A program made the translations under genes and the position numbers. Positions 1-13,241 of a stretch of 13,241 bases of DNA are shown here, in pieces; position 1 is the first letter of the stretch, and every line of letters starts with the position of its first letter. Source of the DNA: Eubacterium sp. (GTDB lineage Bacteria; Bacillota; Clostridia; Lachnospirales; Lachnospiraceae). Below the pieces are notes generated by a model. It was not told the origin of the DNA and searched no databases. It saw only the letters and a program-made list of their open reading frames with translations. Location: positions 1 through 13,241 of the forward strand of contig JABUSX010000405.1 of assembly GCA_021442545.1 (NCBI GenBank). Direction: 5' to 3'.

Positions 1-5
1 ATTTC

Positions 6-55
6 TTTACATTTCATCATCCATTTTTTACAGGACCGCACATCCGGATTTTACA
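6..55 (+). promoter_or_regulatory. Candidate PhoP-box-like hexamers upstream of the pst operon
   Basis: The hexamer TTTACA occurs at 6-11, 27-32 and 50-55, at 21- and 23-base intervals, close to two helical turns. Bacillus PhoP boxes are TT(A/T/C)ACA-type direct repeats, usually every 11 bp, so this looks like alternate sites of such an array ahead of a phosphate operon. The intermediate positions do not match, and the window begins only five bases upstream, so more copies may lie outside. The role is inferred from the motif and from the pst genes downstream. Confidence 0.3.
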
Positions 56-143
56 AGAGCTCTTTATTCTTATATCCGTGCACAAAAGAAACGACATGAG
101 GCTCTGATCGTTTCTGTGACAACAGGAGAGACGGATCTATAAA
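50..143 (+). promoter_or_regulatory. Candidate pst promoter region
   Basis: Two weak -10-like elements are visible: TATATC at 71-76, 15 bases after the TTTACA at 50-55, and TATAAA at 138-143, with no good -35 box. Response-regulator-activated pst promoters often lack a consensus -35, so either could be used. If the first is correct, the whole CCGG repeat array lies in the transcribed leader. The start point cannot be fixed from sequence alone. Confidence 0.22.
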
Positions 144-170
144 AGAAACGGAATTCTGTGAAAGCAGAAC

Positions 171-297
171 CGGAATGCCGGAAAGATCGAAACCGGAATG
201 CCGGAGAGAGTGACAACCGGAATGCCGGAAAGAGTGAAATCGGAATGCCGGAGAGAGTGACAACCGGAATGCCGGAAAGGACAGAACCGGAATCCTG
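171..297 (+). repeat. Tandem CCGGAATGCCGG mini-hairpin array in the pstS leader
   Basis: The core CGGAATGCCG starts at 171, 194, 218, 241 and 265, with a degenerate sixth copy (CGGAATCCTG) at 288. Spacing alternates 23, 24, 23, 24, 23, so the higher-order period is about 47. Spacers are purine rich (GAAAGAGTGAC, GAGAGAGTGAC, GAAAGATCGA). Most copies contain CCGG-AATG-CCGG, a 4-bp stem with a 4-base loop, so the leader RNA would be a string of small hairpins. The array ends 46 bases before the pstS start. It can be read through in the pstS frame, but the 23/24 alternation, the Shine-Dalgarno and the signal peptide at 344 argue that it is untranslated. Confidence 0.85.
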
Positions 298-343
298 CAA
301 AGAGCCGAAGAAAAACCAAAAAAGAAAAGATGAGGAAAAAAAC

Positions 344-1186
344 ATGAAAAAGAAAGCAATGATTCTTGCGTTGGCAGTTGGTACAGTGACATGCCTGATG
401 GGCTGCGGAGCAAAGGAAGCCGGGGCGGCAGAGATGGGCAAAGTTTCCGGTACGGTTTCCACGGACGGATCCACATCCATGGAAAAGGTTATCGGCGCTC
501 TGGGTGAGGCTTTTATGGAAATGAACAAAGATGCCAGCTTCACTTACAACCCGACCGGCAGCGGCAGCGGGATCACGGCAGCGGAAAACGGAACCTGCGA
601 CATCGGTCTTTCGAGCCGGCATCTGAAAGAAGAAGAGCTTGCCAAGGGTCTTGAGGAGACAGAACTTGCCATCGACGGGATTGCCGTGATCGTAAATATA
701 AACAATGAGGCGCAGGATCTTACTCTGGAAGAGATTGCCGATATCTACACCGGCGAGATCACGAACTGGTCGGAAGTCGGCGGAGCAGATGCAGAAATCG
801 TCGTGATCGGCCGTGAAGCCGGAAGCGGAACACGTGATGGTTTTGAATCCATAACCGGTACGGAAGATGCCTGCGTGCTGCGTCAGGAACTGACTTCGAC
901 GGGTGATGTGATCGCAACGGTGAAGAGCAACGAGAACGCGATTGGTTATGCATCTCTGGCTTCTGTAAAAGACGACGTTGCCATGGTTGCTGTCGATGGT
1001 GTTGAGCCGAGTTCGGAAACGATTCTGGACGGAAGCTATGCGATCCAGAGACCTTTCATTCTGGTTACGAAAGAAGACCGCGAGCTTTCCGAGGCGGCGC
1101 AGGCGTTTATGGATTTCGCCCTCTCTGAAGATGCCATGGAAATTATCGTGAGTGCCGGCGTAGTTCCTGCAGCACAGGAGTTATAA
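344..1186 (+). CDS. pstS: Phosphate ABC transporter substrate-binding lipoprotein PstS
   Basis: Periplasmic-type phosphate receptor of the PstSCAB importer, anchored outside the membrane as a lipoprotein. The 280-residue protein has a basic N-terminus, a hydrophobic segment (residues 5-16) and a lipobox LMGC with the lipidated Cys21. Phosphate-contacting loops of the family are visible: STDGSTSM (39-46), TGSGSGI (71-77), DIGLSSR (86-92) and GREAGSGTRD (156-165). I chose ATG 344 because GAGGA lies 7 bases upstream and the signal peptide begins there. The frame stays open back to 158, but that part is encoded by the CCGG repeat array and looks like leader. The stop codon abuts pstC directly. 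Length is normal for short clostridial PstS proteins. Induction by phosphate starvation is known for the family. Confidence 0.96.
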   Translation: MKKKAMILALAVGTVTCLMGCGAKEAGAAEMGKVSGTVSTDGSTSMEKVIGALGEAFMEMNKDASFTYNPTGSGSGITAAENGTCDIGLSSRHLKEEELAKGLEETELAIDGIAVIVNINNEAQDLTLEEIADIYTGEITNWSEVGGADAEIVVIGREAGSGTRDGFESITGTEDACVLRQELTSTGDVIATVKSNENAIGYASLASVKDDVAMVAVDGVEPSSETILDGSYAIQRPFILVTKEDRELSEAAQAFMDFALSEDAMEIIVSAGVVPAAQEL

Positions 1187-2050
1187 ATGAACAAAGCAGC
1201 AGATAAGATTATGCACGGTTTGTTCCTGGTCTGCGGCCTGATTGCCATAGCCTGCGTATGTACCATTACCATATATCTGATCATATCGGGCATTCCGGCA
1301 ATCAAGGAAATCGGCATAGTTAAGTTCTTATTCGGAACAACATGGGCTTCTACCGCAAAGGAGCCCATGTTCGGAATACTTCCGTTCATATTGACAAGTA
1401 TATTCGGAACCCTTGGCGCAATTCTGATTGGTGTTCCGGTCGGCTTTTTTACGGCACTGTATCTCTCCAAGTTTGCCAATCTCCATATAAAAAAGACGGT
1501 CGGTTTTGTGGTAACGCTTCTTGCTTCCATTCCGTCTGTTGTATACGGTCTCGTGGGAATGCTGGTTCTGGTTCCTGCGATCCGTACCGTTTTCGGGATC
1601 CCCGACGGTGCCACGCTTTTTGCGGCGATCCTGGTTCTTGCAATCATGATCCTGCCGTCCATCATCAGCGTATCCATGACGGCTCTGGATGCCGTTCCGC
1701 AGAAGTATGAGCACGGGGCGCTGGCCCTGGGTGCAACGGAATGTGAGACCTATCTGAAGGTATCCGTGCCGGCGGCAAAATCAGGAATCATTGCTTCCAT
1801 CGTTCTGGGCGTCGGAAGAGCCATCGGCGAAGCCATGGCCGTTATGATGGTTTCGGGAAACGTTGCCAATATGCCGAAACTCTTCGGTTCCGTGCGTTTC
1901 CTTACAACGGCGATCGCTTCCGAGATGTCTTATGCTTCCGGGCTTCAGAAAGAAGCACTTTTTTCGATCGCACTTGTCCTGTTTGTTTTCATTATGCTGA
2001 TCAATCTTGTACTCCGCAAAGTCATGAAGGGAGGAAAGGAAAACGCATGA
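1187..2050 (+). CDS. pstC: Phosphate ABC transporter permease PstC
   Basis: Inner-membrane permease subunit that pairs with PstA to form the phosphate channel. The 287-residue protein has about six hydrophobic helices and a MetI-like (BPD_transp_1) fold. The EAA-type coupling loop that contacts PstB is visible around residues 166-200 (QKYEHGALALGATE), followed by GVGRAIGEAMAV, a PstC hallmark. The start follows the pstS stop with no intervening base, with AGGAG at 1176-1180 inside the end of pstS, so the two are translationally coupled. The 3' end contains a purine-rich Shine-Dalgarno-like stretch (2027-2040) that appears to serve a micro-ORF overlapping its stop rather than pstA. Confidence 0.95.
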   Translation: MNKAADKIMHGLFLVCGLIAIACVCTITIYLIISGIPAIKEIGIVKFLFGTTWASTAKEPMFGILPFILTSIFGTLGAILIGVPVGFFTALYLSKFANLHIKKTVGFVVTLLASIPSVVYGLVGMLVLVPAIRTVFGIPDGATLFAAILVLAIMILPSIISVSMTALDAVPQKYEHGALALGATECETYLKVSVPAAKSGIIASIVLGVGRAIGEAMAVMMVSGNVANMPKLFGSVRFLTTAIASEMSYASGLQKEALFSIALVLFVFIMLINLVLRKVMKGGKENA

Positions 2051-2103
2051 GAACGGATCAGAGATATTCGGATGCGGCGAAGAGAGATCAGGCAGACATA
2101 TGA
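2047..2103 (+). CDS. Possible 18-codon micro-ORF overlapping the pstC stop
   Basis: Encodes MRTDQRYSDAAKRDQADI. Its ATG overlaps the pstC TGA in an ATGA junction and sits 6-12 bases after a very strong purine tract, AAGGGAGGAAAGGA (2027-2040). Its own TGA overlaps the ATG of a second micro-ORF. The product is hydrophilic and resembles nothing I recognise. It may be a real coupling peptide between pstC and pstA, or simply the remnant of a once closer pstC-pstA junction. It is listed because the ribosome binding site is better than the one in front of pstA. Confidence 0.25.
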   Translation: MRTDQRYSDAAKRDQADI

Positions 2104-2168
2104 AAAGGATTCAGGTATTTCATAACCTGATGAAGAGAGATTGGAACGAAAATGAAAACGAATATTGA
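2100..2168 (+). CDS. Possible 22-codon micro-ORF overlapping the pstA start
   Basis: Starts in an ATGA overlap with the preceding micro-ORF and ends with TGA at 2166-2168, 17 bases inside pstA. The peptide, MKRIQVFHNLMKRDWNENENEY, is charged and unrecognised. Only a weak AGG lies 7 bases upstream. Its significance is the continuous chain pstC, micro-ORF 1, micro-ORF 2, pstA with no untranslated gap, which could deliver ribosomes to the weak pstA start. Confidence 0.2.
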   Translation: MKRIQVFHNLMKRDWNENENEY

Positions 2169-3012
2169 AAAAACACGCAAAATAAAAGAGAGGGCATGGA
2201 AGATCGTCATGCTGATCTGTGCTGCCCTGACCTGTGCCATCCTGATTTTCATCATCGGCTATGTCTTTGTGCAGGGTGTCGGCGGTCTCAGCATCGAATT
2301 TCTGACCACAAAGCCCAGCTATCTTTCCGGAAACATCGGCATTCTTCCCGATATTCTGAACACGGTCTATATTCTGATCGTGTCGATCCTCGTACTGCTC
2401 CCTCTGGGAGTCGGTGCGGCCATCTACTTAAGTGAATATGCGACGAATCATAGGATCGTCAAGCTTGTGGACTATGCCGCAGAGATCCTTTCCGGCATTC
2501 CGTCCATCATCTACGGGCTTGTCGGCATGCTGTTCTTCTGTCAGTTCCTGAATATGAAGACATCACTTCTTGCCGGTGCTCTGACGCTGGTGGTAATGAA
2601 CCTTCCGACGATCATGAGAACGACGCGAGAAAGCCTTCTTACTGTTCAGAAGGGGCTGCGGGAAGGAGCCTATGCACTCGGCGCGTCCAAATGGAGAGTC
2701 GTCCGGACGATCGTCATTCCGGAATGTCTGGACGGTATTATTACCGGATGCATTCTTTCTGCAGGCAGGATCCTGGGAGAATCGGCGGCACTCCTGTTTA
2801 CGGCCGGCTTTGCCCATACGCTCCATGGTTTCTTCGACGGGATCACGAGCTCCGGAGCCACCCTGACCGTAGCACTTTATGTATATGCCAAGGAACAGGG
2901 AGAATTTCAGATTGCTTTTTCAATCGCTGTGATCCTTCTGATCCTTGCAGTGATCGTGAATCTCTGTGCAGTCGGTGTGAAAAGGCATTTTCAGAAAAAG
3001 AAGAGCATTTAA
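2152..3012 (+). CDS. pstA: Phosphate ABC transporter permease PstA
   Basis: Second membrane subunit of the phosphate channel, partner of PstC and docking site for PstB. The 286-residue protein has a basic N-terminus, a first membrane helix near residues 18-41 and five further hydrophobic segments. The EAA coupling loop is at about 168-196 (GLREGAYALGASKWRVV). SGIPSIIYGLVGMLF in the middle is typical of PstA/PstC proteins. The ribosome binding site is poor (GGAA 5 bases before the ATG), and the frame cannot be extended upstream because of a TGA at 2128-2130, so the start is well fixed but probably depends on coupling from upstream translation. A 149-base gap separates it from pstB. Confidence 0.95.
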   Translation: MKTNIEKTRKIKERAWKIVMLICAALTCAILIFIIGYVFVQGVGGLSIEFLTTKPSYLSGNIGILPDILNTVYILIVSILVLLPLGVGAAIYLSEYATNHRIVKLVDYAAEILSGIPSIIYGLVGMLFFCQFLNMKTSLLAGALTLVVMNLPTIMRTTRESLLTVQKGLREGAYALGASKWRVVRTIVIPECLDGIITGCILSAGRILGESAALLFTAGFAHTLHGFFDGITSSGATLTVALYVYAKEQGEFQIAFSIAVILLILAVIVNLCAVGVKRHFQKKKSI

Positions 3013-3051
3013 CTGCCTTCAGAAGTTCTGCGAAAAAACAAATACAAAATG

Positions 3052-3108
3052 GCTGCAGCAGTTCCACAGTAAAGAAAAATCACATACGGAAAAAGCTGCA
3101 GCGGTTCC
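3052..3108 (+). repeat. Short direct repeat in the pstA-pstB gap
   Basis: GCTGCAGCAGTTCC (3052-3065) recurs as GCTGCAGCGGTTCC (3095-3108), 43 bases apart with one mismatch. Each copy contains the 8-bp self-complementary GCTGCAGC, so the copies could also pair with each other. No terminator T-run follows, so transcription is expected to continue into pstB. The function is unknown. Confidence 0.5.
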
Positions 3109-3161
3109 CGGGAAATAGATGAGTGAACCGGTGAGACGTTAACAACACGAGGATGTACAAC

Positions 3162-3911
3162 ATGGAAAAATTTACGATAGAGAACCTGGATCTTTTTTAC
3201 GGAGAATTTCATGCATTAAAGAGCATTGATATGAGAATCCCGGAGCATGAAGTCACGGCTTTTATCGGGCCGAGCGGCTGCGGAAAATCCACGTTTCTGA
3301 AAACGCTGAACCGCATGAATGATCTTGTTGAAAACTGCAGGATCACGGGAAGCGTAAAGCTGGACGGAGAAGATATATATAAGGACAACAAAGTAAGCGA
3401 ACTTCGGAAAAGAGTCGGAATGGTCTTTCAGCAGCCGAATCCCTTCCCGATGAGCATTTATGACAATATCGCCTTCGGACCGCGGACGCACGGCATCCGC
3501 AATAAAGCTCAGCTGGATGAGATCGTCGAAAAGTCGCTGCAGCAGGCGGCGATCTGGGAAGAATGCAAGGACCGCCTGAAAAAGAATGCCCTCGGAATGA
3601 GCGGCGGACAGCAGCAGAGGCTCTGCATAGCCAGAGCACTTGCCGTCGATCCGGAAGTTCTTCTCATGGATGAACCGACGAGCGCTCTGGACCCGATTTC
3701 CACGTCGAAAATTGAAGATCTGGTTCTGGAACTGAAGGATCGCTATACGATCATCATGGTCACCCACAATATGCAGCAGGCTGCACGTGTTTCGGATAAT
3801 ACGGCCTTCTTCCTGCTGGGCGACATGATCGAGTTTGACAAAACAGAAAAAATTTTCTCGACTCCTTCCAATAAGAAAACAGAAGATTACATAACCGGCA
3901 GATTCGGATAA
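3162..3911 (+). CDS. pstB: Phosphate ABC transporter ATP-binding protein PstB
   Basis: Cytoplasmic ATPase that drives PstCA. The 249-residue protein shows all ABC motifs in order: Walker [10 protein letters not shown] (36-44), Q-loop VFQQPNPFP, signature [16 protein letters not shown], Walker [14 protein letters not shown] and switch histidine in VTHNMQQ. The [13 protein letters not shown] stretch is typical of PstB. I prefer ATG 3162 over the in-frame ATG 3153 because GAGG (3149-3152) directly abuts 3153 but is 9 bases from 3162; the difference is only three residues. It lies between pstA and phoU on the same strand in the conserved pst order. Confidence 0.97.
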
Positions 3912-3960
3912 GGAATCTGTAAAAACACCCGAAAAAGAATCTTAGAGGCAAAGTGAAGGA

Positions 3961-3975
3961 CGGAAATCATTTCCG
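3961..3975. promoter_or_regulatory. 15-bp dyad just before phoU
   Basis: CGGAAAT-C-ATTTCCG is a perfect 7+1+7 palindrome that ends 8 bases before the phoU Shine-Dalgarno AAGGA (3984-3988). As RNA it could give a 5-bp stem with a 5-base loop beside the ribosome binding site; as DNA it could be an operator. Neither role is demonstrated by the sequence. Confidence 0.35.
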
Positions 3976-3993
3976 GCTGAAGAAAGGAAAAAA

Positions 3994-4653
3994 ATGGCTA
4001 GAGAAAGTTATGATCGGCAGCTGAAGTATCTGAAGGATCAGATGCTTTTGCTGGGAAGTATGCTTCAGGAAGCACTCAGCGAAACGATACGGGCCCTCGT
4101 CACACAGGATGTGGAAAAGGCCAGAAGCGTATCAGCAGGAGATGAGCGGATCAATGCACAGGTCAGACGCATCGAGCAGGAATGCTACATGCTCTTTCTG
4201 CGGCAGCAGCCGATCGCAAAGGATCTGCGGAGCGTTTCCGCGGTGATGAAGATGATCACGGATATGGAACGGATCGGAGATCACGCGGCAGATATTTCCG
4301 AACTTGTGATCTATATGAGCAAAGAGCCCTATCCGGAAGAGATACATGTGATTGAGCAGATGGCAAAAGAAACAACGGTCATGCTGATCGAGGCAGTGGA
4401 CGCCTTTGCCGGAAAAAGCGTTGAAAAGGCAGAAGGTGTGATCCGAAGAGATGATCGTGTAGACAAACTTTTTGTGCAGGTCAAAAAGGATATCTGCGAA
4501 CATATGAAGACCATCGACACCACGAAGAGCACGATGATCGAACTGGATCTTCTTATGGTTGCAAAATACTTTGAGCGGATCGGAGATCATGCGACGAATA
4601 TTGCGGAGTGGGTGCTGTTTTCAATTTCAGGAGATGTCTCCGAAATAAGCTGA
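3994..4653 (+). CDS. phoU: Phosphate-uptake regulator PhoU
   Basis: Peripheral cytoplasmic regulator that restrains Pst transport and, in species with a PhoR-type kinase, keeps Pho signalling off when phosphate is plentiful. The 219-residue protein is two PhoU repeats of helical bundles. Each ends in the metal-binding E/D-xxx-D signature: DMERIGDHAAD (90-100) and YFERIGDHATN (192-202). Length is typical. AAGGA lies 5 bases before the ATG. It is the last gene of the pst operon and 82 bases after pstB. No PhoB/PhoR pair is in the window, so the signalling partner must lie elsewhere. Confidence 0.95.
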   Translation: MARESYDRQLKYLKDQMLLLGSMLQEALSETIRALVTQDVEKARSVSAGDERINAQVRRIEQECYMLFLRQQPIAKDLRSVSAVMKMITDMERIGDHAADISELVIYMSKEPYPEEIHVIEQMAKETTVMLIEAVDAFAGKSVEKAEGVIRRDDRVDKLFVQVKKDICEHMKTIDTTKSTMIELDLLMVAKYFERIGDHATNIAEWVLFSISGDVSEIS

Positions 4654-4762
4654 GCAGGGAGCGGCGAAATAACGGTCAAAGTGATAAGATCCGAAACCGT
4701 ATCGTGGCAGAGCGGAATTTTTCCTGTGGAAAAAATCCCGGCGGAGTCCTAAAATGGTAGCA

Positions 4763-4834
4763 GTGCCGGAAAACATATGTAGGGGCATGTTGTGAGATTT
4801 TCCGGAATGGAGCGATCCCCGATTGTTCCGGCAC
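4763..4834 (+). other. Leader with three mutually competing complementary segments
   Basis: In the 237-base phoU to thioesterase gap, segment A (GTGCCGGAAAA, 4763-4773) can pair with B (TTTTCCGG, 4798-4805; 8 bp) or with C (TTCCGGCAC, 4826-4834; 9 bp). CCGGAA in B (4802-4807) can also pair with C (6 bp). These pairings exclude each other, as in attenuators, but no T-run follows any of them. The self-complementary CCGG core makes such overlaps easier to get by chance. The rest of the gap shows no gene. Confidence 0.35.
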
Positions 4835-4890
4835 CCTGATCAAAAATCATACAGACATCGCTGACAGGATTTTGAAAGGGAGAATGAAAG

Positions 4891-5310
4891 ATGCCGACGC
4901 TTGAAGAAATACGAGAACGGTTTTCCGGAGACAAATATGCAACCGAGACCACGGGGATCGTGATCCGCTCTGCGGAGCCGGGACACGCGGTCTGTGATCT
5001 GCCGATCACGCCGAAGATTTTAAACGCAAACAATGTGCCTATGGGAGGTGCCGTATTTACCCTGGCAGATTTTGCCGCGGCCATTGCGGCAAACGGATTC
5101 AGCGAGGAGATCACGGTCTCCCAGCAGGTTTCCGTAACTTTTCTGGCTGCCGCAAAAGGTTCTGTGCTGACGGCGGATGCACGCTGCCTAAAGGCCGGCC
5201 GGAAGACATGTCTTTACGAGGTCAATATCACAGATGATGCCGGCGTTTTCGTGGCACACGCAACGTCGAACGGGTTTACGGTAGGGAAGTTTGTAAAACC
5301 TGTATCGTGA
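4891..5310 (+). CDS. PaaI-like hotdog-fold acyl-CoA thioesterase
   Basis: Probable cytoplasmic thioesterase of the PaaI/YdiI hotdog superfamily, hydrolysing an acyl-CoA to free acid and CoA. The 139-residue length is right for a single hotdog domain. The active-site helix region is at about 50-70, with NNVPMGGAVFTLADFAAAIA matching the family pattern N-x-x-x-HGG-x-x-F-x-LAD. The usual His before GG is Met here. A later conserved stretch is SVTFLAAAKGSVLTADARCL. GGGAG lies 8 bases before the ATG. It follows phoU by 237 bases with no terminator, so it may be partly cotranscribed with pst; it ends before a terminator and a separate operon encoding an acyl-CoA dehydrogenase fusion. Substrate cannot be read from the sequence. 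Confidence 0.85.
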   Translation: MPTLEEIRERFSGDKYATETTGIVIRSAEPGHAVCDLPITPKILNANNVPMGGAVFTLADFAAAIAANGFSEEITVSQQVSVTFLAAAKGSVLTADARCLKAGRKTCLYEVNITDDAGVFVAHATSNGFTVGKFVKPVS

Positions 5311-5354
5311 AACCTGTATCGTGAATCCTATATCGTGAACCCTGTATCGTGAAC
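5299..5354 (+). repeat. 14-bp tandem repeat spanning the thioesterase stop codon
   Basis: Units CCTGTATCGTGAAA begin at 5299, 5313, 5327 (CCTATATCGTGAAC) and 5341, with a degenerate fifth (CGCTTTTCGTATAA) at 5355. The first unit encodes the last residues of the thioesterase (P-V-S) and its TGA at 5308-5310. Because 14 is not a multiple of three, copies shift frame, but reading from the gene always meets the TGA in the first unit. No flanking mobile element is seen; replication slippage is the likely origin. Confidence 0.85.
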
Positions 5355-5375
5355 CGCTTTTCGTATAAAATGAGG

Positions 5376-5414
5376 TCTTCAGACTTCGGATAAAGGACCT
5401 TTCTGAAGAAGTCT
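5376..5414 (+). other. Alternative overlapping hairpins before the terminator
   Basis: TCTTCAGA (5376-5383) pairs perfectly with TCTGAAGA (5402-5409), while AGACTTC (5381-5387) pairs with GAAGTCT (5408-5414). The two stems share bases and cannot form together. A further match, AGGTC (5373-5377) with GACCT (5396-5400), also competes. There is no T-run here; the true terminator is about 30 bases downstream. Confidence 0.4.
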
Positions 5415-5442
5415 CTCAATATCTCTGCTCACAATAGTATAC

Positions 5443-5472
5443 AACAGGTGGTGTTGACCGCCTGTTTTTTTT
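5443..5472 (+). terminator. Rho-independent terminator after the thioesterase gene
   Basis: AACAGGTGG (5443-5451) pairs with CCGCCTGTT (5458-5466), 9 bp including one G-T wobble, around the loop TGTTGA, and merges into eight Ts (5465-5472). It closes the pst/thioesterase transcript and separates it from the acyl-CoA dehydrogenase operon. Confidence 0.9.
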
Positions 5473-5550
5473 ATGTTAATATCACAAATATACGTGCTTT
5501 TGAGAATTCGTATTAGTAAAAAATGTATAAAAAATGTGTAAAAAGGAGGT
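5473..5550 (+). promoter_or_regulatory. Promoter region and Shine-Dalgarno of the dehydrogenase-flavodiiron operon
   Basis: This AT-rich stretch lies between the terminator and the operon. A -10-like TATAAA is at 5526-5531 and TTGAGA, a possible -35, at 5500-5505, but the 20-base spacing is long, so the exact promoter is uncertain. An imperfect dyad TGTTA-ATA-TCACA (5474-5486) could be an operator; its spacing does not fit Rex or FNR/CRP sites. AAGGAGGT (5543-5550) is a near-perfect ribosome binding site 6 bases before the ATG, consistent with high expression. Confidence 0.4.
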
Positions 5551-5556
5551 AGAGAA

Positions 5557-7476
5557 ATGTTATTTCAAACCACACCTCAGCACGAGGAATTCAGAGCAGC
5601 AATTCGTGAATTTGCAGAGCGGGCTGTAAAACCGATCGCTCCGAAAATGGATCGTGAGAACGGTTTTCCGTATGAAGCCGTTAAAGAACTCGGGGAAATG
5701 GGCGTTCTGGGCGTTCCCTTCCCGAAGGAATACGGCGGCGCCGGAAAAGACGTTCTGAGCTATGCCATTGCCGTTGAGGAACTTTCCAGAGTAGACGGCG
5801 GAACGGGTGTTATCCTCTCTGCACATGTATCACTCGGAACCTGGCCGATCTTTGCTTTCGGCAATGAAGAGCAGAAACAGAAATACCTGGTTCCGCTCTG
5901 CAAGGGCGAAAAGCTCGGTGCCTTCGGTCTGACAGAGCCGAATGCCGGTTCTGACGCAGGCGGCACAGAGACCACAGCCATCTGGGACGGCGAAAACTAC
6001 ATCCTGAACGGAGAAAAGATCTTCATCACCAACGGCGGCGTCGCGGAGACCTACGTTGTCTTTGCGGTTACCACACCGGGCATCGGCACGAAGGGCATTT
6101 CCGCCTTCATCGTGGAAAAAGGCTGGGAAGGCTTCACCTTCGGAACCAAGTACGACAAGCTGGGTATCCGTTCTTCCGCCACGCAGCAGCTGCTGTTCCA
6201 CAACGTGAAGATTCCGAAAGAGAACCTGCTTGCCGAGGAAGGCATGGGCTTCAAGATCGCTATGGCTACGCTGGACGGCGGCCGTATCGGTATTGCTTCC
6301 CAGGCTCTTGGTATTGCACAGGGTGCCTATGAAGCCGCTCTGGAATATGCAAAAGAACGTGAACAGTTCGGCATGCCGATCGCCGGACAGCAGGGCATTT
6401 CCTTCAAGCTGGCAGACATGGCTACAAAGCTTGACTGCGCCCGCATGCTGATCTACAAGGCAGCCGAGATGAAAGAAGCACATGTGCCGTACGGAAAAGA
6501 AGCGGCCATGGCCAAGATGTATGCATCCGACATTGCCCTGGAAGTCTGCAACGATGCACTGCAGATCCACGGCGGCAACGGCTACCTGAAAGGCATGGAC
6601 GTTGAACGGATGTACAGAGATGCGAAGATCACGACGATCTACGAAGGAACCAACGAGATCCAGCGCGTGGTCATCGGCGCCAGCATCATCGGACGCATCA
6701 ACAGACCGAAACCCGCAGCTTCCGGCGCACCGGCAGCTCCGAAGCCCGGCATCACCGGCCCGCGTAAGAAAAAAATCTTCCAGGGAGATGCGGCAGAATG
6801 CGTTGCTTCCCTTGTCGAAGCACTGAAGGGCGACGGCCATGACTTTACGGTCGGCATCGCCATGGATACGCCGATCGTGGAAGCGGAGCGCGTCGTTTCC
6901 ATGGGCAGAGGCATCGGAGACAAAGAGAACATTAAACTGATCGAGGATCTGTGCAAGGCTGCCGGCGCGGCCATCGGCTCCTCCCGTCCGGTTGCGGAAG
7001 ATCTCGGCTATCTGCCGCTTGAGCGCTATGTCGGTATGTCCGGTCAGAAATTCTCCGGCAATCTGTATTTTGCCTGCGGCATCTCCGGTGCCATCCAGCA
7101 TCTGAAAGGCATCAAAGACGCATCCTGCATCGTGGCGATCAACAAAGATCCGGGCGCCCCGATCTTCAAGAACTGCGATTACGGTATCGTCGGCGACCTG
7201 ATGGAAGTCCTGCCGATCCTTGCGGAAGCTCTGGATACCGGCGAGAAGGAGGAAGCTCCGGCCATGGTCAAGATGGACAGAGTGGTAAGTGAAGAACCGG
7301 TTGTAAAACCGGCACCGATGGACAGATACGTGTGCAACGGCTGCGGTTATGAGTACATTCCGGAAGAGGGTGATCCCGAAGGCGACATCGCTCCCGGAAC
7401 ACCGTTCGAGAAACTTCCGGACAGCTGGACCTGCCCATTCTGCGGAGAGAGCAAATCGGAATTTGTGAAAGCCTGA
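5557..7476 (+). CDS. Acyl-CoA dehydrogenase / EtfA C-terminal domain / rubredoxin fusion
   Basis: A 639-residue three-module redox enzyme. Residues 1-380 are an acyl-CoA dehydrogenase of the butyryl-CoA dehydrogenase type: FAD signature [13 protein letters not shown] (from 124), [11 protein letters not shown], and the catalytic base Glu363 in [10 protein letters not shown]. An Ala/Pro/Lys-rich linker (about 383-406) leads to the FAD-binding domain II of EtfA (about 407-560): VSMGRGIG (447-454), GSSR ending at Arg477, GISGAIQH (508-515) and [12 protein letters not shown] second acidic/proline linker joins a rubredoxin with YVCNGCGY (Cys593, Cys596) and WTCPFCG (Cys626, Cys629). The EtfA N-terminal domain and EtfB are absent. 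Inferred role: oxidise an acyl-CoA to enoyl-CoA and pass electrons FAD to FAD to Fe(Cys)4, then to the flavodiiron protein encoded 27 bases downstream. Chain length of the substrate is unknown. Confidence 0.95.
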
Positions 7477-7503
7477 TCTGAATGACTGAGAGGAGAAAAT
7501 CAT

Positions 7504-8721
7504 ATGTATTGTGTGCGTCAAATTACGGACGGTCTGTACTGGGTAGGTGCGAATGACCATCGACTGCATCTTTTTGAAAACGTTCATCCCATTCCGCTGG
7601 GTGTAAGCTACAACGCATACCTGCTTCAGGATGAAGGCTGCAACATTCTCATCGACACGGTAGACTGGTCTGCCTGCCGCCAGATGCTGGAAAACGTGGA
7701 TTATCTGCTTGACGGCGGAAAGCTGGATTACCTGATCGTCAACCATATGGAGCCCGACCACGCGGCGACCATCGGTGAAGTGCTTCTGCGCTGGCCGAAG
7801 ATCAAAGTCATTGCTTCCCTGAAAGCCTTCCGGCTGATGCATCAGTTCGGCTTCGAGGTTGGCGATGAGGAAAAGATCGTCGTTGCAGAAGGCGATACCT
7901 ACACCTTTAACGAACACACGGTTACCTTCGTGGCAGCCCCGATGGTACACTGGCCCGAAGCGATCGTTACGCTGGATCTCACCAACGGTGCACTTTTCTC
8001 CGCCGACGCCTTCGGTTCGTTCATTGCCCTGGACGGCAAACTCTTTGCCGACGAGGTCGACTTCGACAGAGACTGGCTGGATGAAGCCCGCCGCTATCTG
8101 GTAAACATCGTGGGCAAGTACGGTCCGCAGGTTCAGGTCCTTCTCGGCAAGGCGGCGACCGTACTGGACAAGATCGAATTCATCTGCCCGCTTCACGGAC
8201 CGGTATGGCGTGAGAATCTTGGCTACTTCATCGAAAAATACGACAAGTGGAGCCGCTACGAACCGGAAGAAGAAGGCGTTCTCATCGCCTACGCTTCCAT
8301 GTACGGCAACACCGAATCCGCCGCACAGGCACTGGCTGCAAAGCTTTGTGAAAAAGGCATGACGAATGTCGTCGTCCGTGACGTATCCGATACACACGTA
8401 TCTTATCTGATCGCAGACGCCTTCAAGTACAGCCACATCGTACTGGCATCTGTCACCTACAACCTCGGAGCTTATCCGGTGATGATGAACTTCCTGCACG
8501 ACATGAAGGCACTCAACCTGCAGAAACGCACCTTCGCGATCGTGGAGAACGGCTCCTGGGCCTGCAAGTCCGGCGACGTCATGTCCAAATTCATCACGGA
8601 TGAAATGAAGAACATGAAACTGCTGAACAACCGCCTGTCACTGGCCTCCTCGCTCCATGCGGACAAGGCCGCAGAACTCGAGTCGTTCGCAGATATGATC
8701 ATGAAATCATTCGAAGAGTGA
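7504..8721 (+). CDS. fprA: Flavodiiron protein (A-type flavoprotein, FprA family)
   Basis: Cytoplasmic four-electron O2 reductase (to water) and/or NO reductase (to N2O) of anaerobes. The 405-residue protein has an N-terminal metallo-beta-lactamase-like diiron domain with ligands His81, Glu83, Asp85, His86 (NHMEPDH), His149 (APMVHW), Asp168 (SADAF) and His231 (CPLHGP). A C-terminal flavodoxin domain starts near residue 258, with the FMN phosphate loop ASMYGNTES (264-272). No rubredoxin or reductase domain is fused, so it needs an external donor; the rubredoxin at the end of the upstream fusion is the obvious candidate. AGGAG lies 8 bases before the ATG, the gap to the upstream gene is 27 bases, and a strong terminator follows, so the two form a closed bicistronic operon. 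O2 versus NO preference cannot be told from the sequence. Confidence 0.96.
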   Translation: MYCVRQITDGLYWVGANDHRLHLFENVHPIPLGVSYNAYLLQDEGCNILIDTVDWSACRQMLENVDYLLDGGKLDYLIVNHMEPDHAATIGEVLLRWPKIKVIASLKAFRLMHQFGFEVGDEEKIVVAEGDTYTFNEHTVTFVAAPMVHWPEAIVTLDLTNGALFSADAFGSFIALDGKLFADEVDFDRDWLDEARRYLVNIVGKYGPQVQVLLGKAATVLDKIEFICPLHGPVWRENLGYFIEKYDKWSRYEPEEEGVLIAYASMYGNTESAAQALAAKLCEKGMTNVVVRDVSDTHVSYLIADAFKYSHIVLASVTYNLGAYPVMMNFLHDMKALNLQKRTFAIVENGSWACKSGDVMSKFITDEMKNMKLLNNRLSLASSLHADKAAELESFADMIMKSFEE

Positions 8722-8778
8722 GTGAAGAGGGATTTCTGAAACTCAAATCTTAAAATGAAAATTTCAGATGAGACAAGA

Positions 8779-8809
8779 GGCCGCTTCCCGAAAGGGAGGC
8801 GGCCTTTTT
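8779..8809 (+). terminator. Strong rho-independent terminator after fprA
   Basis: GGCCGCTTCCC (8779-8789) pairs with GGGAGGCGGCC (8794-8804), 11 bp with one T-G wobble, around a GAAA tetraloop, and is followed by TTTTT (8805-8809). A smaller upstream complementarity, TCTGAAA (8735-8741) with TTTCAGA (8762-8768), lies just after the fprA stop. Together they end the dehydrogenase-flavodiiron operon. Confidence 0.95.
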
Positions 8810-8920
8810 GAAACCACCCACAGCCGGCATCGTTTGCGGAACGGGTTCAAAATACGAAATCCTGTAAAGGATTGGATACATAAACACCAGACGTAATGTG
8901 TTTTTCTTGCAGTATTTCTT

Positions 8921-8986
8921 CGCTGCGGGTACAACGTTGCTAAATCAAGATTTACTAAATTATGATTTAGCAAAGGAGACGCAGCG
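8921..8986 (+). repeat. Long imperfect inverted repeat enclosing the Fic-remnant ribosome binding site
   Basis: The outer arms CGCTGCG (8921-8927) and CGCAGCG (8980-8986) enclose perfect 11-bp inner arms TTGCTAAATCA (8937-8947) and TGATTTAGCAA (8963-8973), with a 15-base AT-rich loop. The ribosome binding site AAAGGAGA (8972-8979) lies partly in the inner stem and partly in the internal loop. The structure ends at the base before the GTG of the truncated Fic gene. It could be an operator, a translation-blocking hairpin or a recombination scar. Upstream 8810-8920 holds only a small AATCCT-GTAA-AGGATT hairpin (8858-8873) and no gene I recognise. Confidence 0.6.
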
Positions 8987-9289
8987 GTGTTTGTATCCGG
9001 ATTATGGCAGATTCATATATTTGCCGAAGGTAATACAAGGACCACGGCCGTGTTTTTTATTAAGTATCTGAATACCCTTGGATTTGATGTTACGAATGAC
9101 ATATTTGAAGAGAATGCCTGGTATTTCAGAAATGCTCTGGTTCGGGCAAACTATAACGACCTGAAAAACGGAATTCATAAGACGACGGAGTATCTTGAAT
9201 TATTCTTACGCAATTTGCTGCTGGATGAAAAAAATGAACTGCACAATCGCGATATGCATATCGGCAGACTGCCTGAGAAGAGGCAGTAA
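8987..9289 (+). pseudogene. 5'-truncated Fic-family protein (C-terminal half)
   Basis: Fic proteins transfer AMP or other nucleotide groups to target proteins and often act as toxins. The 100-residue reading frame begins, with GTG, just before the catalytic loop: LWQIHIFAEGNTRTTA carries the HxFx(D/E)GNxRT core (His10, Glu14, Gly15, Asn16, Arg18), with Ile where canonical Fic has Pro. The following NDIFEENAWYFRNALVRANY and the end near LHNRDMHIG match the C-terminal half of a common Firmicutes Fic type of about 200 residues. The N-terminal half that completes the fold is missing; in frame upstream there are only seven codons before a TGA (8963). A good ribosome binding site (AAAGGAGA) and GTG could still allow translation, but the product should not fold as an active Fic enzyme. 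I call it a decayed gene with moderate certainty. Confidence 0.75.
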
Positions 9290-9613
9290 AACAAAATCCC
9301 ACCATTAAAGATCCTGTGCAGTTCGTCAATATTCTGTCGGCAGATGACCTTTATTTGGGTAGGATACGGCTTTTATAAAAGCTTTTGCGGGAGTGCTGTC
9401 GGGAAATAGAGCAGCAGATATGATGATGTTTGTATCAATGAATACATTCATGTGGTGTTACTTTCTGATCGCAGATCAGCTCAGGTCGAATGCCCCATTC
9501 AGGGTAAATCCGGCACCTGAGCTGATCTGTGTTTATTATGGAAAAATATTCAATTTACATAACACTCCGCGGATGCAGCCGTTTTCGGCTTCATCACCGT
9601 TATACCGCAGGTT
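9290..9613 (+). other. 324-base gap with orphan reading-frame fragments
   Basis: No intact gene is supported here. One frame is open from 9277 to 9378 and reads plausibly (EAVKQNPTIKDPVQFVNILS), lying in the -1 frame relative to the end of the Fic remnant, so it may be its frameshifted tail or another relic. A second frame is open from 9363 to 9641 (GTG at 9393; contains MMMFVSMNTFMWCYFL), has no ribosome binding site and runs into the convergent gene. I recognise neither. The gap also contains the perfect inverted repeat at 9472-9529. Confidence 0.4.
9472..9529. repeat. 15-bp perfect inverted repeat with a competing small hairpin
   Basis: CAGATCAGCTCAGGT (9472-9486) is the exact reverse complement of ACCTGAGCTGATCTG (9515-9529), with a 28-base loop. 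CTGATC just upstream (9465-9470) can alternatively pair with GATCAG (9474-9479) in the left arm, giving a competing hairpin. No T-run follows on either strand, so it is not a standard intrinsic terminator, although it sits 85 bases past the 3' end of the - strand gene. It may be a processing hairpin or a remnant of a small mobile element. Confidence 0.7.
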
Positions 9614-10462
9614 TTATGAATTCCAAAGGTTGGTTATATAATCCGCGCTTGCGCGAAGGAGTTCGGCGCTGCCCGCGACTTCAAGGGTTGAGTATTTGAT
9701 TTCTTTTCTGTCTTTCAGGACATCGATCACGCCCTTGATATCGATGCATCCGGTTCCGACCTCGATGGTGGAAAATCCGCAGCCGAAGCGTTTGCCGCGT
9801 TCCGGTATCCATTCTTCTCCGAGATCTTTCCAGTGGATGTGATAAATTTTATCCTTGTATCTCTTTGCGAGTTCAACGGGATCGCTGCCGCCTAACCAGC
9901 TGTTGCCCGTATCCAGGTTAACTCCGAGAGATTCAATATTGCCGAGGGCGTCCATAACGTCACCGATGCCGTTTATGGAATCCGTAAGAGGACCGTGCGG
10001 CTCAAGGCAAAGCTTTATGCCGTAATCGCGGGCCATCTTGCAGGGCTCATACAATTTTTCTGCTGTAATGAAAACGGTCTGATCATAGGTAAGGCTTTTC
10101 GCCCATTCGCTCTTTGCAAAGGTTTCCGTTGTAATGACGTCCCGGATACCGATTGCTGCGGCAAATTTGATGGCCTTCATGACTTCCGCGGTTGCGAAAT
10201 TAGCCGGGCTGGACGGCTCCAAAAGCGAGGCATGCGCACTTAAAGTCATAATGTTCATACCGTATTTTTCAAAAGTTCTCTTAATTTCAAAAGGATTATC
10301 ATCAAGACTGACGGAAGCTGACAAGCCGGCAGAAGCAAACATTGAGCCGCTGGAATGCGTATCTGTTATGTCCGCATATTCAAAACCGTAATCATGAGCA
10401 ATCTTAAGGTTATTTTCCAAACTGGTATAAGGTTCCAAAGCTAAAAAGACACCGACATTCAT
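9614..10462 (-). CDS. Xylose-isomerase-like TIM-barrel protein (sugar phosphate isomerase/epimerase family)
   Basis: A 282-residue AP_endonuc_2/xylose-isomerase-like TIM barrel, the fold of IolE/IolI, tagatose epimerases and endonuclease IV. Likely metal ligands line up with the family: Glu154 in LCLEPHGP, Asp184 in NLDTGNSW, His210 in YHIHWKD and Glu261 in STLEVAG. The EPHG and HWKD motifs favour a sugar or inositol isomerase/epimerase or dehydratase over a nuclease. It starts with ATG at 10462, with AGAGGAGG on the - strand (10472-10479) 9 bases upstream. It is monocistronic here and divergent from the metallo-hydrolase gene, with no sugar transporter or kinase nearby, so its substrate cannot be inferred. 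Family call is secure; function is not. Confidence 0.85.
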   Translation of the reverse strand: MNVGVFLALEPYTSLENNLKIAHDYGFEYADITDTHSSGSMFASAGLSASVSLDDNPFEIKRTFEKYGMNIMTLSAHASLLEPSSPANFATAEVMKAIKFAAAIGIRDVITTETFAKSEWAKSLTYDQTVFITAEKLYEPCKMARDYGIKLCLEPHGPLTDSINGIGDVMDALGNIESLGVNLDTGNSWLGGSDPVELAKRYKDKIYHIHWKDLGEEWIPERGKRFGCGFSTIEVGTGCIDIKGVIDVLKDRKEIKYSTLEVAGSAELLRASADYITNLWNS

Positions 10463-10471
10463 TCTGTTTTT

Positions 10472-10531
10472 CCTCCTCTGATGATGTTGATTTTGTGCTT
10501 TTATTATAACAAACGAATCCCTGAGCGGACA
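10472..10531 (-). promoter_or_regulatory. Promoter and ribosome binding site of the TIM-barrel gene
   Basis: On the - strand a perfect TATAAT (+ strand ATTATA, 10503-10508) lies upstream of AGAGGAGG (10472-10479). The position 17 bases further upstream reads TGTCCG (10526-10531), a poor -35, so an activator may be needed. Confidence 0.6.
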
Positions 10532-10813
10532 CCCTTTTGTTCACTTTTTCGGTTTATCCTAACAGTCTCATATATCACATCCTGCGAATTTGATGTAAGA
10601 TAGTTACACTGGTATGGAGGCTTTCTGTACTTCGAAACAGTTTGTGTTTTCATGGGATCGGAACGGATAAATATTTTCGTAATGTGTTCATAGATCCGGT
10701 TCGTATTGGACCGGAAAACATATGGATTTTGCGGCAGATAAGTGGGACAGGTAATTATTTTACGTACAGGCTGGTGAAAGCAGGTACTGTCTGAATAAAA
10801 GAGGAATGAATGT
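10532..10813. other. Intergenic region between divergent genes
   Basis: The gap between the two divergent start codons is 351 bases (10463-10813). This part holds no supported gene. A frame without ATG is open from about 10592 to 10796 and resembles nothing I know. A small dyad, TCCGGT (10695-10700) with ACCGGA (10710-10715), has a 9-base loop. The metallo-hydrolase ribosome binding site GAGGA is at 10801-10805. No clear promoter for that gene is visible. Confidence 0.4.
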
Positions 10814-11617
10814 ATGAAGCTGATTATGCTGGGAACCGGAAACGCAATGGTGACAAAGTGTTTCAATACCTGCTTTGTGATGGAAGATCATAACAGATAT
10901 TTTCTCGTGGATACAGGCGGCGGAAACAGAATTCTGTCTGCATTAGAGGATGTAAATGTTCCCGTTGACGATATCCATGATATTTTTCTTACGCATGAAC
11001 ATGTTGATCATCTTCTCGGTATTATCTGGCTGATCCGTTATGCGGCATCAAAGATGAATAAGGGGAAATATAACGGGGACCTGAGAATCTATTGTCATCA
11101 GGATCTGGTCAATACCATTTTGACGATCTGCGGACTTACTCTGCAGAAGAAGATGACGAAGTTCTTTGGAAAGAGGATCTTTTTGATCGGCGTGGAAGAC
11201 GGAGAAACCAGAGAGATCATTGGTCAGGAAGTGACCTTTTTCGACATCCACTCAACAAAGGCCAGGCAGTATGGTTTTGTCATGAAGGCAAAAGGCGGGC
11301 AGAAGATTGCATGTGCAGGCGACGAGCCATACAACGAGAGTGAGTATGCGTATGTGAAAAACAGTGACTGGCTTATGCATGAGGCCTTCTGTCTGGCGTC
11401 TGAGGCAGATCACTTTAAACCGTATGAAAAACATCACAGTACGGTAAAAGATGCCTGTGAACTGGCGGAAAAACTCAGGATACCGAATCTGATCCTGTAT
11501 CACACGGAAGATACGCACATAAAGAACAGAAAAGAACTGTACATGGAGGAAGGAAGACGGTTTTATACAGGAAATCTGTTTGTGCCGGATGATCTGGAAT
11601 CCATAGAGCTGGACTGA
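10814..11617 (+). CDS. RNase Z-like metallo-beta-lactamase-fold hydrolase
   Basis: A 267-residue MBL-fold metal hydrolase, most similar in layout to RNase Z/ElaC-type proteins. The di-zinc motif THEHVDH gives His61, His63, Asp65 and His66. Further ligands are probably His146 (FFDIHST), Asp170 (CAGDEP) and His230 (LILYHTED). The stretch KHHSTVKDACELAEK (206-220) matches the RNase Z segment HSTxxxAxxxA whose His takes part in catalysis, and LMHEAF corresponds to its VHEAT. It is slightly shorter than housekeeping RNase Z (about 300 residues), so it may be a paralogue or another phosphodiesterase rather than the tRNA 3' processing enzyme. GAGGA lies 8 bases before ATG 10814. It stands alone, divergent from the TIM-barrel gene and upstream of a small CxxC protein gene. 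Confidence 0.85.
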   Translation: MKLIMLGTGNAMVTKCFNTCFVMEDHNRYFLVDTGGGNRILSALEDVNVPVDDIHDIFLTHEHVDHLLGIIWLIRYAASKMNKGKYNGDLRIYCHQDLVNTILTICGLTLQKKMTKFFGKRIFLIGVEDGETREIIGQEVTFFDIHSTKARQYGFVMKAKGGQKIACAGDEPYNESEYAYVKNSDWLMHEAFCLASEADHFKPYEKHHSTVKDACELAEKLRIPNLILYHTEDTHIKNRKELYMEEGRRFYTGNLFVPDDLESIELD

Positions 11618-11639
11618 CCGGAACTTGTAAAAATTCGGA

Positions 11640-11674
11640 TATTCCGGTAAGTTTTATTCACGGACACCGGAATA
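11640..11674 (+). other. Stem-loop between the metallo-hydrolase and the small CxxC gene
   Basis: TATTCCGGT (11640-11648) is the perfect reverse complement of ACCGGAATA (11666-11674), with a 17-base loop. Only a scattered TTTCTTT (11687-11693) follows, so it would be at best a weak terminator and some readthrough into the small gene is expected. Confidence 0.5.
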
Positions 11675-11712
11675 CACATGAATCGTTTCTTTAAAACAAA
11701 CAGGAGATACTT

Positions 11713-11949
11713 ATGCCGGGATATCTGATCAAAGACACTACAACGGAAGAAAGAAGAAAAATCGTGGAAGAAGCCCTTGGAAATATAGAGGCTTCCTGTG
11801 ACGGCTGCATGCCGGGACTTGCCGAGATGTATGAGGCGTATATCAGAGGAGAAAAAGAGATCCGTGACATCAATATGGAATTTTCCGCCCGTTATGTAAA
11901 GGGGGATATGGAAAGAGAAGAAAGAGCAGGCTGCCTGTACAGAGGGTAA
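11713..11949 (+). CDS. Conserved small protein with a CxxC motif
   Basis: A 78-residue, soluble, charged protein without a signal peptide. It starts at ATG 11713 with AGGAG 6 bases upstream. It has a helical N-terminal half (TTTEERRKIVEEALGNIEA) followed by SCDGCMPGLAEMYEAYIRGE, where Cys29 and Cys32 form a CxxC pair, and a lone Cys74 near the C-terminus. From memory the opening MPGYLIKDTT and the CDGCM segment resemble small proteins common in Clostridia, but I know no verified function. The CxxC suggests metal binding or redox activity. It follows the metallo-hydrolase by 95 bases and a stem-loop. Its TAA is followed, in the same frame, by a fibronectin-III fragment that probably belongs to another lost gene. 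Confidence 0.8.
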   Translation: MPGYLIKDTTTEERRKIVEEALGNIEASCDGCMPGLAEMYEAYIRGEKEIRDINMEFSARYVKGDMEREERAGCLYRG

Positions 11950-11952
11950 AAC

Positions 11953-12150
11953 TGTGCTGCGGCGAATAGCAGCTTCACCTCTGCAAAAACCGTCACTGTG
12001 AAAGGAAACGCGACCGTACAGAAGAACATTACCAAATCGATCGTAAAAGGAAAGGCGTATTACGTCCGGATCCGTACCTATAAGACAGTTGGCGGAAAGA
12101 ATTACTTCTCCGGATGGAGTAAAGCACTGAAACTGAAGATCAAAAAATAA
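11953..12150 (+). pseudogene. C-terminal fragment of a fibronectin type III surface protein
   Basis: Reading from 11953 gives about 65 codons ending in TAA at 12148-12150, with the typical last strands of a clostridial Fn3 domain: SSFTSAKTVTVKG, then YYVRIRTYKTVGGKNYFSGW and a lysine-rich end KALKLKIKK. Such tails close large secreted or cell-wall proteins in Lachnospiraceae and relatives. There is no start codon, ribosome binding site or signal peptide; the frame begins directly after the TAA of the small CxxC gene and is in frame with it. The most likely explanation is deletion of most of a surface-protein gene that kept its own terminator. A readthrough fusion is less likely. Confidence 0.75.
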
Positions 12151-12166
12151 ATCACAGATCATACGC

Positions 12167-12206
12167 GCGGCCGGAAGGGTTCACCCCTCCGGCCGCTTAT
12201 TTATTG
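12167..12206 (+). terminator. Rho-independent terminator after the Fn3 fragment
   Basis: GCGGCCGGA (12167-12175) pairs perfectly with TCCGGCCGC (12188-12196). One A-C mismatch then leads to three more G-C pairs around a TTCA loop, and TTATTTATT follows. Very stable for the + strand; the - strand side has no T-run, so it should not serve the convergent genes. Confidence 0.85.
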
Positions 12207-12276
12207 TAATCGGAGAATCAACCCCTTATCAGGTCATTTAAGATCATTGGGGATGATGGCTCTGTGTATTTTTTTG

Positions 12277-12309
12277 AGAAAAGGATAGCAGTCGGCAGAG
12301 TCCTTTTCT
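12277..12309. repeat. 9-bp inverted repeat beyond the XRE gene
   Basis: AGAAAAGGA (12277-12285) and TCCTTTTCT (12301-12309) are perfect reverse complements with a 15-base loop, 8 bases beyond the XRE stop. On the - strand the T-rich right arm could act as a weak terminator (stem ending TCCTTTTCT), but no separate T-run follows. Nothing else is recognised between 12207 and 12316. Confidence 0.45.
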
Positions 12310-12316
12310 GTATGAG

Positions 12317-12952
12317 TTAATCGATGATATCTTCTATGCCGCAGCCCAGGACGGAGGAAAGTGCTAAAACAGAATCCACGGCGGCTTTGCCCAGATCCTT
12401 GGATCCGATCTCATATTGCTGCAGGGTTCGGAGGTTTACACCGGATTTTTCGGCAAGCTCTTTCTGCGTATACCCAAGGAGTTTGCGCTGTCTTTGCAGT
12501 TTTGTAACCGATTGTTTCTTTTCCCGGATCGCTTCGGCTGCATCTACAAATCTATCTTCGGATGCTTCGTGGAGAGTCCCGTAGAGTTTATAGATTTCCT
12601 CAATAGAAATGATATCCAGAATATCTTTAAAGCTTCTACCGCTCTTCCACTGATAATAGGCCAGTATCCATCCGCACCAGTATTCCGGTGAATAGTCATA
12701 CTCTGTCTGCTGTTCCGGGAAAGAAAACTGCAGACCGCTTTTTAAAATAATTTCCATGACAAGTTCTGTTCCGGACAGTCCTGCAACGATCTTTGGATTA
12801 CCCTTCCGGAACTGTTCTGCATAGCCGCTTGCTACAAACAGCTCTGCAATTCTGCCAAGTGTAAGACCGCAGGCATTTACAGCATAGTCAAATGCTTCGC
12901 CCAGATTCCGCATGGCCAGATCAAGATATGACTCATCATATGTGCAGATCAT
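12317..12952 (-). CDS. XRE-family helix-turn-helix protein with N-terminal extension
   Basis: A 211-residue DNA-binding protein. The HTH_3/XRE domain is C-terminal (about 152-208): LQRQRKLLGYTQKELAEKSG, then VNLRTLQQYEIGSKDLGKA with the recognition helix. The first ~140 residues are a helical domain I cannot name (YWCGWILAYYQWKSGRSF near 91-108 looks characteristic). Its ATG overlaps by 17 bases the 3' end of a DUF3990 gene on the same strand, so the two are translationally coupled. A close XRE partner beside a putative ADP-ribosyltransferase-like protein recalls toxin/antitoxin pairs such as RES-Xre, so this may be an antitoxin and autorepressor. Fold of the C-terminus is secure; the role is inferred. 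Confidence 0.85.
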   Translation of the reverse strand: MICTYDESYLDLAMRNLGEAFDYAVNACGLTLGRIAELFVASGYAEQFRKGNPKIVAGLSGTELVMEIILKSGLQFSFPEQQTEYDYSPEYWCGWILAYYQWKSGRSFKDILDIISIEEIYKLYGTLHEASEDRFVDAAEAIREKKQSVTKLQRQRKLLGYTQKELAEKSGVNLRTLQQYEIGSKDLGKAAVDSVLALSSVLGCGIEDIID

Positions 12953-13241
12953 CCTGATTCATTCCTTTCCTGATAATGTCTCGCATGAAGATGCCCTCCA
13001 GGTCCTCCCTGTCCGATTCCTTTTCGTAGGCCCGGCGGGCGTCTTCGTCTCTCGTCTTTCGTCTCGCATAATATACGGCGTTATCCGCAACCTCATAGTC
13101 AAGGAAGCGAAGCGCATCAAAGGCCTTCTGCGATTTCAGCACGACCTGCTCTCCAAGTTTGCCGAGCTGCATCGCCCGGCCAAGCTGCGCGAGCGAAATA
13201 CCATTCTCCACAAATGCTCTCGCAAAAGAGAAATAGGAATC
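12936..13241 (-). CDS. DUF3990 family protein, C-terminal part (runs off the window)
   Basis: Only the last ~101 codons are present; the start lies beyond 13241. The visible part begins DSYFSFARAFVENGISLAQL and continues with LGKLGEQVVLKSQKAF, a signature I associate with the C-terminus of DUF3990 proteins, ending in a charged tail rich in Arg, Asp and Glu. To my knowledge DUF3990 belongs to the ADP-ribosyltransferase-like superfamily, but the NAD-binding residues would be in the missing part. It overlaps the downstream XRE gene by 17 bases. An apparent GTG at 13209-13211 lies inside the domain and is not the start. Family call is from memory of the motif; function is inferred. Confidence 0.75.
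   Translation of the reverse strand, partial: DSYFSFARAFVENGISLAQLGRAMQLGKLGEQVVLKSQKAFDALRFLDYEVADNAVYYARRKTRDEDARRAYEKESDREDLEGIFMRDIIRKGMNQDDLHI

Follow-up and report, generated by a model that had tools for sequence, protein, structure and literature searches.

A Eubacterium contig carries a gene pair that very probably encodes butyryl-CoA oxygen oxidoreductase

In their 2024 work, Bystrom and Wolthers characterised the butyryl-CoA oxygen oxidoreductase (BOOR) of Fusobacterium nucleatum, which is composed of BCR (FN1424) and a flavodiiron protein (FDP; FN1423) (PMC12288474); the loci are given as FN1423-FN1424 in the available part of a 2025 paper (PMC12630350). According to the accessible sections of PMC12288474, to which all statements taken from that paper refer, the F. 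nucleatum proteins convey electrons from acyl-CoA to O2 without NADH and form an α4β4 complex that is reported to lack nitric oxide (NO) reductase activity. The same sections state that many obligately anaerobic Firmicutes, butyrate formers included, encode BOOR, Rnf and Bcd-Etf. The accessible part of a 2026 preprint (PMC13404960) places the BOOR gene pair beside an Rrf2 regulator in gut Clostridia, namely Roseburia, Faecalibacterium and Eisenbergiella. The system is already known: its 2024 description comes from another bacterium, and its presence has been reported in many anaerobes of the gut. Here we describe a gene pair in a 13,241-nucleotide stretch of DNA from a Eubacterium sp. of the Lachnospiraceae (contig JABUSX010000405.1 of assembly GCA_021442545.1, positions 1 to 13,241 of the forward strand; hereafter the window). 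The pair is very probably a BOOR, consisting of BCR and FDP and turning O2 into water with the electrons of butyryl-CoA.

The correspondence with the F. nucleatum system extends to the fusion of Bcd, the C-terminus of EtfA and rubredoxin in one chain, to the two-gene set formed with FDP, and to a host equipped with Bcd-Etf and Rnf, as reported for F. nucleatum (PMC12288474). The two systems differ in that they belong to different organisms, and the likeness rests on the described domain and gene order. The activity and substrate of the present pair are those expected by analogy with the F. nucleatum homologue, and its carrier order is a proposed one. The features of the gene pair are as follows.

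5557..7476, + strand: BCR, an acyl-CoA dehydrogenase, EtfA FAD domain and rubredoxin fusion of 639 aa (ORF, Pfam)
5572..6687, + strand: acyl-CoA dehydrogenase part of BCR, residues 6–377 (PF02771, PF02770, PF00441)
6643–6645, + strand: codon of Glu363 in BCR, within YEGTNE
6874..7116, + strand: EtfA C-terminal FAD-binding domain of BCR, residues 440–520 (PF00766, ETF_alpha, 7e-28)
7324..7464, + strand: rubredoxin domain of BCR, residues 590–636, with Cys 593, 596, 626 and 629 (PF00301, 1.6e-19)
7504..8721, + strand: FDP, 405 aa, with an ODP diiron domain and a flavodoxin domain and no extra donor domain (Pfam)

The dehydrogenase part of BCR is recognised by the Pfam models Acyl-CoA_dh_N, Acyl-CoA_dh_M and Acyl-CoA_dh_1, and its nearest solved chain is 5ol2_C, deposited as an acyl-CoA dehydrogenase, which we take to be Bcd of C. 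difficile. Stretches within the EtfA domain or just after it presumably correspond to FAD-binding motifs. Three unrelated domains thus share one open frame, an arrangement that is not due to chance, because the same fusion recurs in many genomes. The BCR stop codon is separated from the FDP ATG by 27 bases (7477–7503), with GAGAGGAG preceding that ATG. The ODP and flavodoxin domains are confined to FDP, barring overlapping matches to generic lactamase-superfamily models, and the nearest solved structures to FDP are a flavorubredoxin and an FprA-type NO reductase. All diiron-ligand positions are present (H81, E83, D85, H86, H149, D168 and H231).

These residues were followed through alignments of 71 BCRs (the window and the 70 nearly complete ones among 80 related loci) and 70 FDPs (the window and 69 others). 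Positions E363, R477, G496, C593, C596, C626 and C629 of BCR are invariant in all 71 sequences, and the seven ligand positions of FDP in all 70. The functional roles of Glu363, of the rubredoxin cysteines and of the seven ligand residues are presumed from general knowledge of these families.

The linkage of the fusion with FDP was surveyed in 393 genomes, evenly drawn from the class of the host and at least 90% complete, using as queries BCR residues 437–639 (the 203 residues spanning EtfA and rubredoxin) and FDP. Among the matches listed, 36 of the 393 genomes matched over nearly all of the 203 residues, and the remaining rows were for the most part limited to the EtfA portion or to a rubredoxin. 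Each of the 36 full fusions is immediately followed by FDP on the same strand, with 15–235 bases between the aligned ends. Of 580 confirmed loci in a named collection, the best 80 were retained, so that these represent only the nearest relatives of the window pair. Seventy-seven of the 80 loci extend 300 bases or more beyond the match; FDP is found within 600 bases in 74 of them and about 880 bases downstream in the other three (L107, L120 and L145), and is thus within 1 kb in all 77. The dehydrogenase is upstream in all 72 loci that extend 1300 bases or more ahead of the match, and shares one open frame with the EtfA-rubredoxin stretch in all 78 loci that have a dehydrogenase match.

Much of this had been anticipated in a sequence-only reading of the stretch. 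The triple fusion that it described is borne out by a single 639-aa ORF with three Pfam regions, its Glu363 and four rubredoxin cysteines are present and conserved in the alignment, and the FDP that it placed 27 bases after BCR is complete and contains only the ODP and flavodoxin domains. It had made its case depend on whether the fusion usually occurs with an FDP gene, and the survey found the two paired in 36 of 36 genomes. The reaction that it predicted, a water-forming acyl-CoA:O2 oxidoreduction through the EtfA FAD domain and rubredoxin without NADH, is the one reported for F. nucleatum BOOR (PMC12288474), and would apply to the present pair by analogy. The novelty that it implied did not hold, as the same two-gene architecture had already been characterised in F. 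nucleatum.

Several loci show other arrangements. Sequence was read for five stretches with survey matches outside the 36 pairs, among them those of G456 and G470. The BCR-FDP gap of about 880 bases in L107, L120 and L145, which come from an uncultured Oscillibacter, an Oscillospiraceae isolate and an unclassified strain, stands against 16–477 bases in the other 74 loci. In G456:C8 (L156), the order FDP-BCR-FDP on one strand was read out in the sequence itself, and coordinates point to an FDP on each side of BCR, again on one strand, in G512:C7 and G367:C22; the second FDPs of G456, G512 and G367 are 58–64% identical to the window FDP. A 1084-aa protein, P0001 (37 member sequences, 3 contigs), consists of an FDP and, after it, three rubredoxin-EtfA FAD modules, and lacks an acyl-CoA dehydrogenase; among the 120 matches listed of 2823, it is the only chain of the FDP-rubredoxin type with an EtfA domain. 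The sequences of the BCR chains P0003 and P0004 show that a short segment within the EtfA domain is duplicated internally.

The window BCR is 70–78% identical to the BCRs of 11 loci, one of which was aligned over residues 156–639 only. For BCR and FDP, respectively, the identities are 73% and 72% with Faecalibacterium prausnitzii (L133), 74% and 73% with an uncultured Roseburia, 74% and 72% with Eubacterium callanderi, and 70% and 63% with a Megasphaera metagenome-assembled genome. Roseburia and Faecalibacterium are among the genera for which BOOR is reported in the accessible part of PMC13404960. The window shares the gene pair with these gut Clostridia, and the F. prausnitzii L133 proteins agree with those of the window in their main Pfam domains. 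The difference lies in the regulator: an Rrf2-like gene is located at most 700 bases from the BCR start in 34 of the 67 close loci with room for it, whereas none was found in the window by tblastn with one F. prausnitzii Rrf2 query at E 1e-5, a search that misses distant Rrf2 genes. Clustering of the neighbouring genes was weak, as antisense ORFs crowded out real ones, and only the Rrf2 cluster was used from it, after re-testing by tblastn.

The mechanism proposed for the pair builds on the reaction of the homologue. The dehydrogenase part of BCR would oxidise butyryl-CoA to crotonyl-CoA with reduction of its FAD, and the electrons would pass from there to the FAD of the EtfA domain, and then one by one through the rubredoxin iron to the FMN of FDP. 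At the diiron site, contributed by the partner subunit and reduced by this FMN, O2 would then be converted to water. Only for the F. nucleatum pair has the overall reaction been reported (PMC12288474); the order of the carriers and the transfer of this mechanism to the window pair are inferred. A butyrate-forming anaerobe could in this way remove O2 at no cost in NADH, with crotonyl-CoA returning to the Bcd-Etf/Rnf pathway. Removal of O2 that is tied to butyryl-CoA rather than to NADH bears on the survival of butyrate-forming anaerobes in O2 and on how O2 lowers butyrate output, and both points have been argued in print (PMC12288474 and the accessible part of PMC13404960). What the present analysis adds is one more carrier of BOOR and a figure for the co-occurrence of the full fusion with FDP.

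The pair can be set apart from two groups of related systems. As in the NADH-linked FDP systems (the multidomain FDP of C. difficile, flavorubredoxin NorVW and Moorella Hrb-FprA), a rubredoxin or flavin domain feeds FDP. In those systems, the electrons come primarily from a reduced pyridine nucleotide (PMC12288474), whereas in the window an acyl-CoA dehydrogenase shares the chain with rubredoxin. An NADH-linked donor was set aside, as no NAD(P)H oxidoreductase domain was detected by Pfam in FDP or in the nine window ORFs scanned. The remaining details of the NADH-linked systems belong to the general background on flavodiiron proteins. With the bifurcating Bcd-EtfAB complex, BCR has in common a homologous dehydrogenase and EtfA FAD domain, and the host's own Bcd is 54% identical to it. 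BCR differs from that complex by the absence of the N-terminal EtfA domain, by the addition of rubredoxin, and by its proposed direction, the oxidation of butyryl-CoA. EtfB was not found by Pfam among the nine window ORFs scanned, and the host carries bcd, etfB and etfA as a set of their own.

The window is contig C10 of a draft assembly of 1.96 Mb in 480 contigs that is 94.8% complete and 2.4% contaminated. Contig C24 of this assembly encodes 3-hydroxybutyryl-CoA dehydrogenase, Bcd, EtfB and EtfA on one strand (best NCBIfam models, all below the cut-off), and matches over the cut-off were obtained in the host genome for RnfC and butyryl-CoA:acetate CoA-transferase. The host genome thus appears to make butyryl-CoA, which is the kind of setting proposed for the action of BOOR.

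A number of observations weigh against the assignment and are considered here with the alternatives on which they bear. The same enzyme might have another acyl-CoA as its physiological donor, such as propionyl-CoA or a branched or longer one, which we regard as quite unlikely. The acyl chain length is not fixed by the BCR sequence, and the best NCBIfam model of BCR is the acryloyl-CoA reductase AcrC, which is not butyryl-specific and was matched with 488 bits against a cut-off of 640; however, the ordinary Bcd of the host matches the same model (519 bits), butyrate-route genes are present in the host genome, and the studied homologue uses butyryl-CoA (PMC12288474). The butyrate context rests on other contigs of the draft assembly, butyrate kinase gave no match in the host genome, and the name Fusobacterium is absent from the named sequence-search matches and the named control genomes. 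FDPs reduce O2 and/or NO (PMC12288474), and the best NCBIfam models of the window FDP are flavorubredoxin NO reductases, but that its FDP arm should mainly reduce NO is very improbable: those models lie far under their cut-off (187 versus 635 bits) and the F. nucleatum complex is described as devoid of that activity (PMC12288474), and NO reduction was set aside on these two grounds. It would also be conceivable that the two proteins work apart, with the fusion feeding other acceptors and FDP being fed by another rubredoxin or reductase. The host does have a separate rubredoxin-like frame (contig C84) and a second FDP carrying its own flavin reductase and rubredoxin-like domains, and genome G470 keeps an FDP without a rubredoxin-bearing fusion. 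In G470, a 572-aa dehydrogenase-EtfA chain (L153:1972-3690, G470:C1) ends without rubredoxin, no FDP was found in the 4.5 kb fetched, and an FDP 60% identical to that of the window sits on another contig, so that a fusion that has lost rubredoxin can be parted from FDP. Set against the unbroken adjacency of the full fusion and FDP in the survey, the lack of a donor domain in the window FDP and the complex formed by the homologues (PMC12288474), separate functions are extremely improbable.

G367 and G456, the other sampled members of the genus of G470, have the full BCR-FDP pair. Two more genomes also weigh against a strict link: G481 has the full pair in addition to a partial dehydrogenase-EtfA stretch in which no rubredoxin was matched and which adjoins an opposite-strand FDP (43%), and G508 has the full pair in addition to a 779-aa chain (L155:1509-3848, G508:C1) in which EtfA comes first and the dehydrogenase follows, the reverse of BCR, with no rubredoxin or FDP match in 4 kb. 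Taken together, G470, G481 and G508 indicate that dehydrogenase-EtfA fusions are wider than BOOR and that the tight link with FDP is a property of the triple fusion. A binning error, by which the window contig would be foreign to the host genome, was considered and is judged less likely than lateral gain or repeated loss. The closest PhoU to that of the window (3994–4653) comes from another family (genome G277, f23; 61%), with the listed same-family matches at 41–45%, and none of the 24 listed genomes of the host's family contains the full fusion. On the other hand, the tetranucleotide usage of the window correlates with that of its own contig C24 (r 0.93) and of four other loci of its own genome (0.80–0.93), and is further from that of six loci of other genomes (0.32–0.71), while Bcd of contig C24 is nearest to the same family (78%). 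We judge, without certainty, that the contig belongs to the host genome. If it were foreign, the evidence of the butyrate pathway would lose weight, and the identification of the operon would stand.

The full-length fusion occurs in 3 of the 196 genomes of the host's order (its own, G008 and G092), a patchy distribution that could reflect either lateral gain or repeated loss. That BOOR was gained laterally by a lineage whose sampled family members lack it, without the usual Rrf2 and perhaps under other control or with another acyl-CoA as donor, is a speculative and rather unlikely scenario; if true, it would mean that butyryl-CoA-driven O2 removal spreads between anaerobes as a two-gene cassette.

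The limits of the operon are marked by the following features.

5443..5472, + strand: intrinsic terminator before the operon (hairpin 5443–5466, then six T; -16 kcal/mol, z -3.99)
5454..5482, + strand: weak sigma-70-like promoter match (9 of 12, motif scan) that overlaps the terminator stem and does not count as evidence of a promoter
8775..8809, + strand: intrinsic terminator after the operon (hairpin 8779–8804, 8775–8808 in the fold, then five T; -29.2 kcal/mol, z -5.44)

Good hairpins are present on both sides, in agreement with the terminator-bounded operon of the sequence-only reading, which is refined in one respect: the hairpin at 5443–5466 more likely ends the transcription unit upstream. 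Because this hairpin lies ahead of the operon, the operon proper would span approximately 5473–8809. Sigma-70-like sites of the kind listed were found 9 times in the window, versus 14.9 expected in shuffles.

Elsewhere in the window, a short ORF (8987–9289) matches the end of a Fic domain below the Pfam cut-off and is perhaps a gene remnant. A tandem repeat of 23 or 47 bases (168–293) is located shortly before the likely start of a phosphate-binding protein gene of the pst-phoU cluster, and a 14-base tandem repeat (AAACCTGTATCGTG; 5296–5353) runs in four copies over the end of the thioesterase gene that lies upstream.

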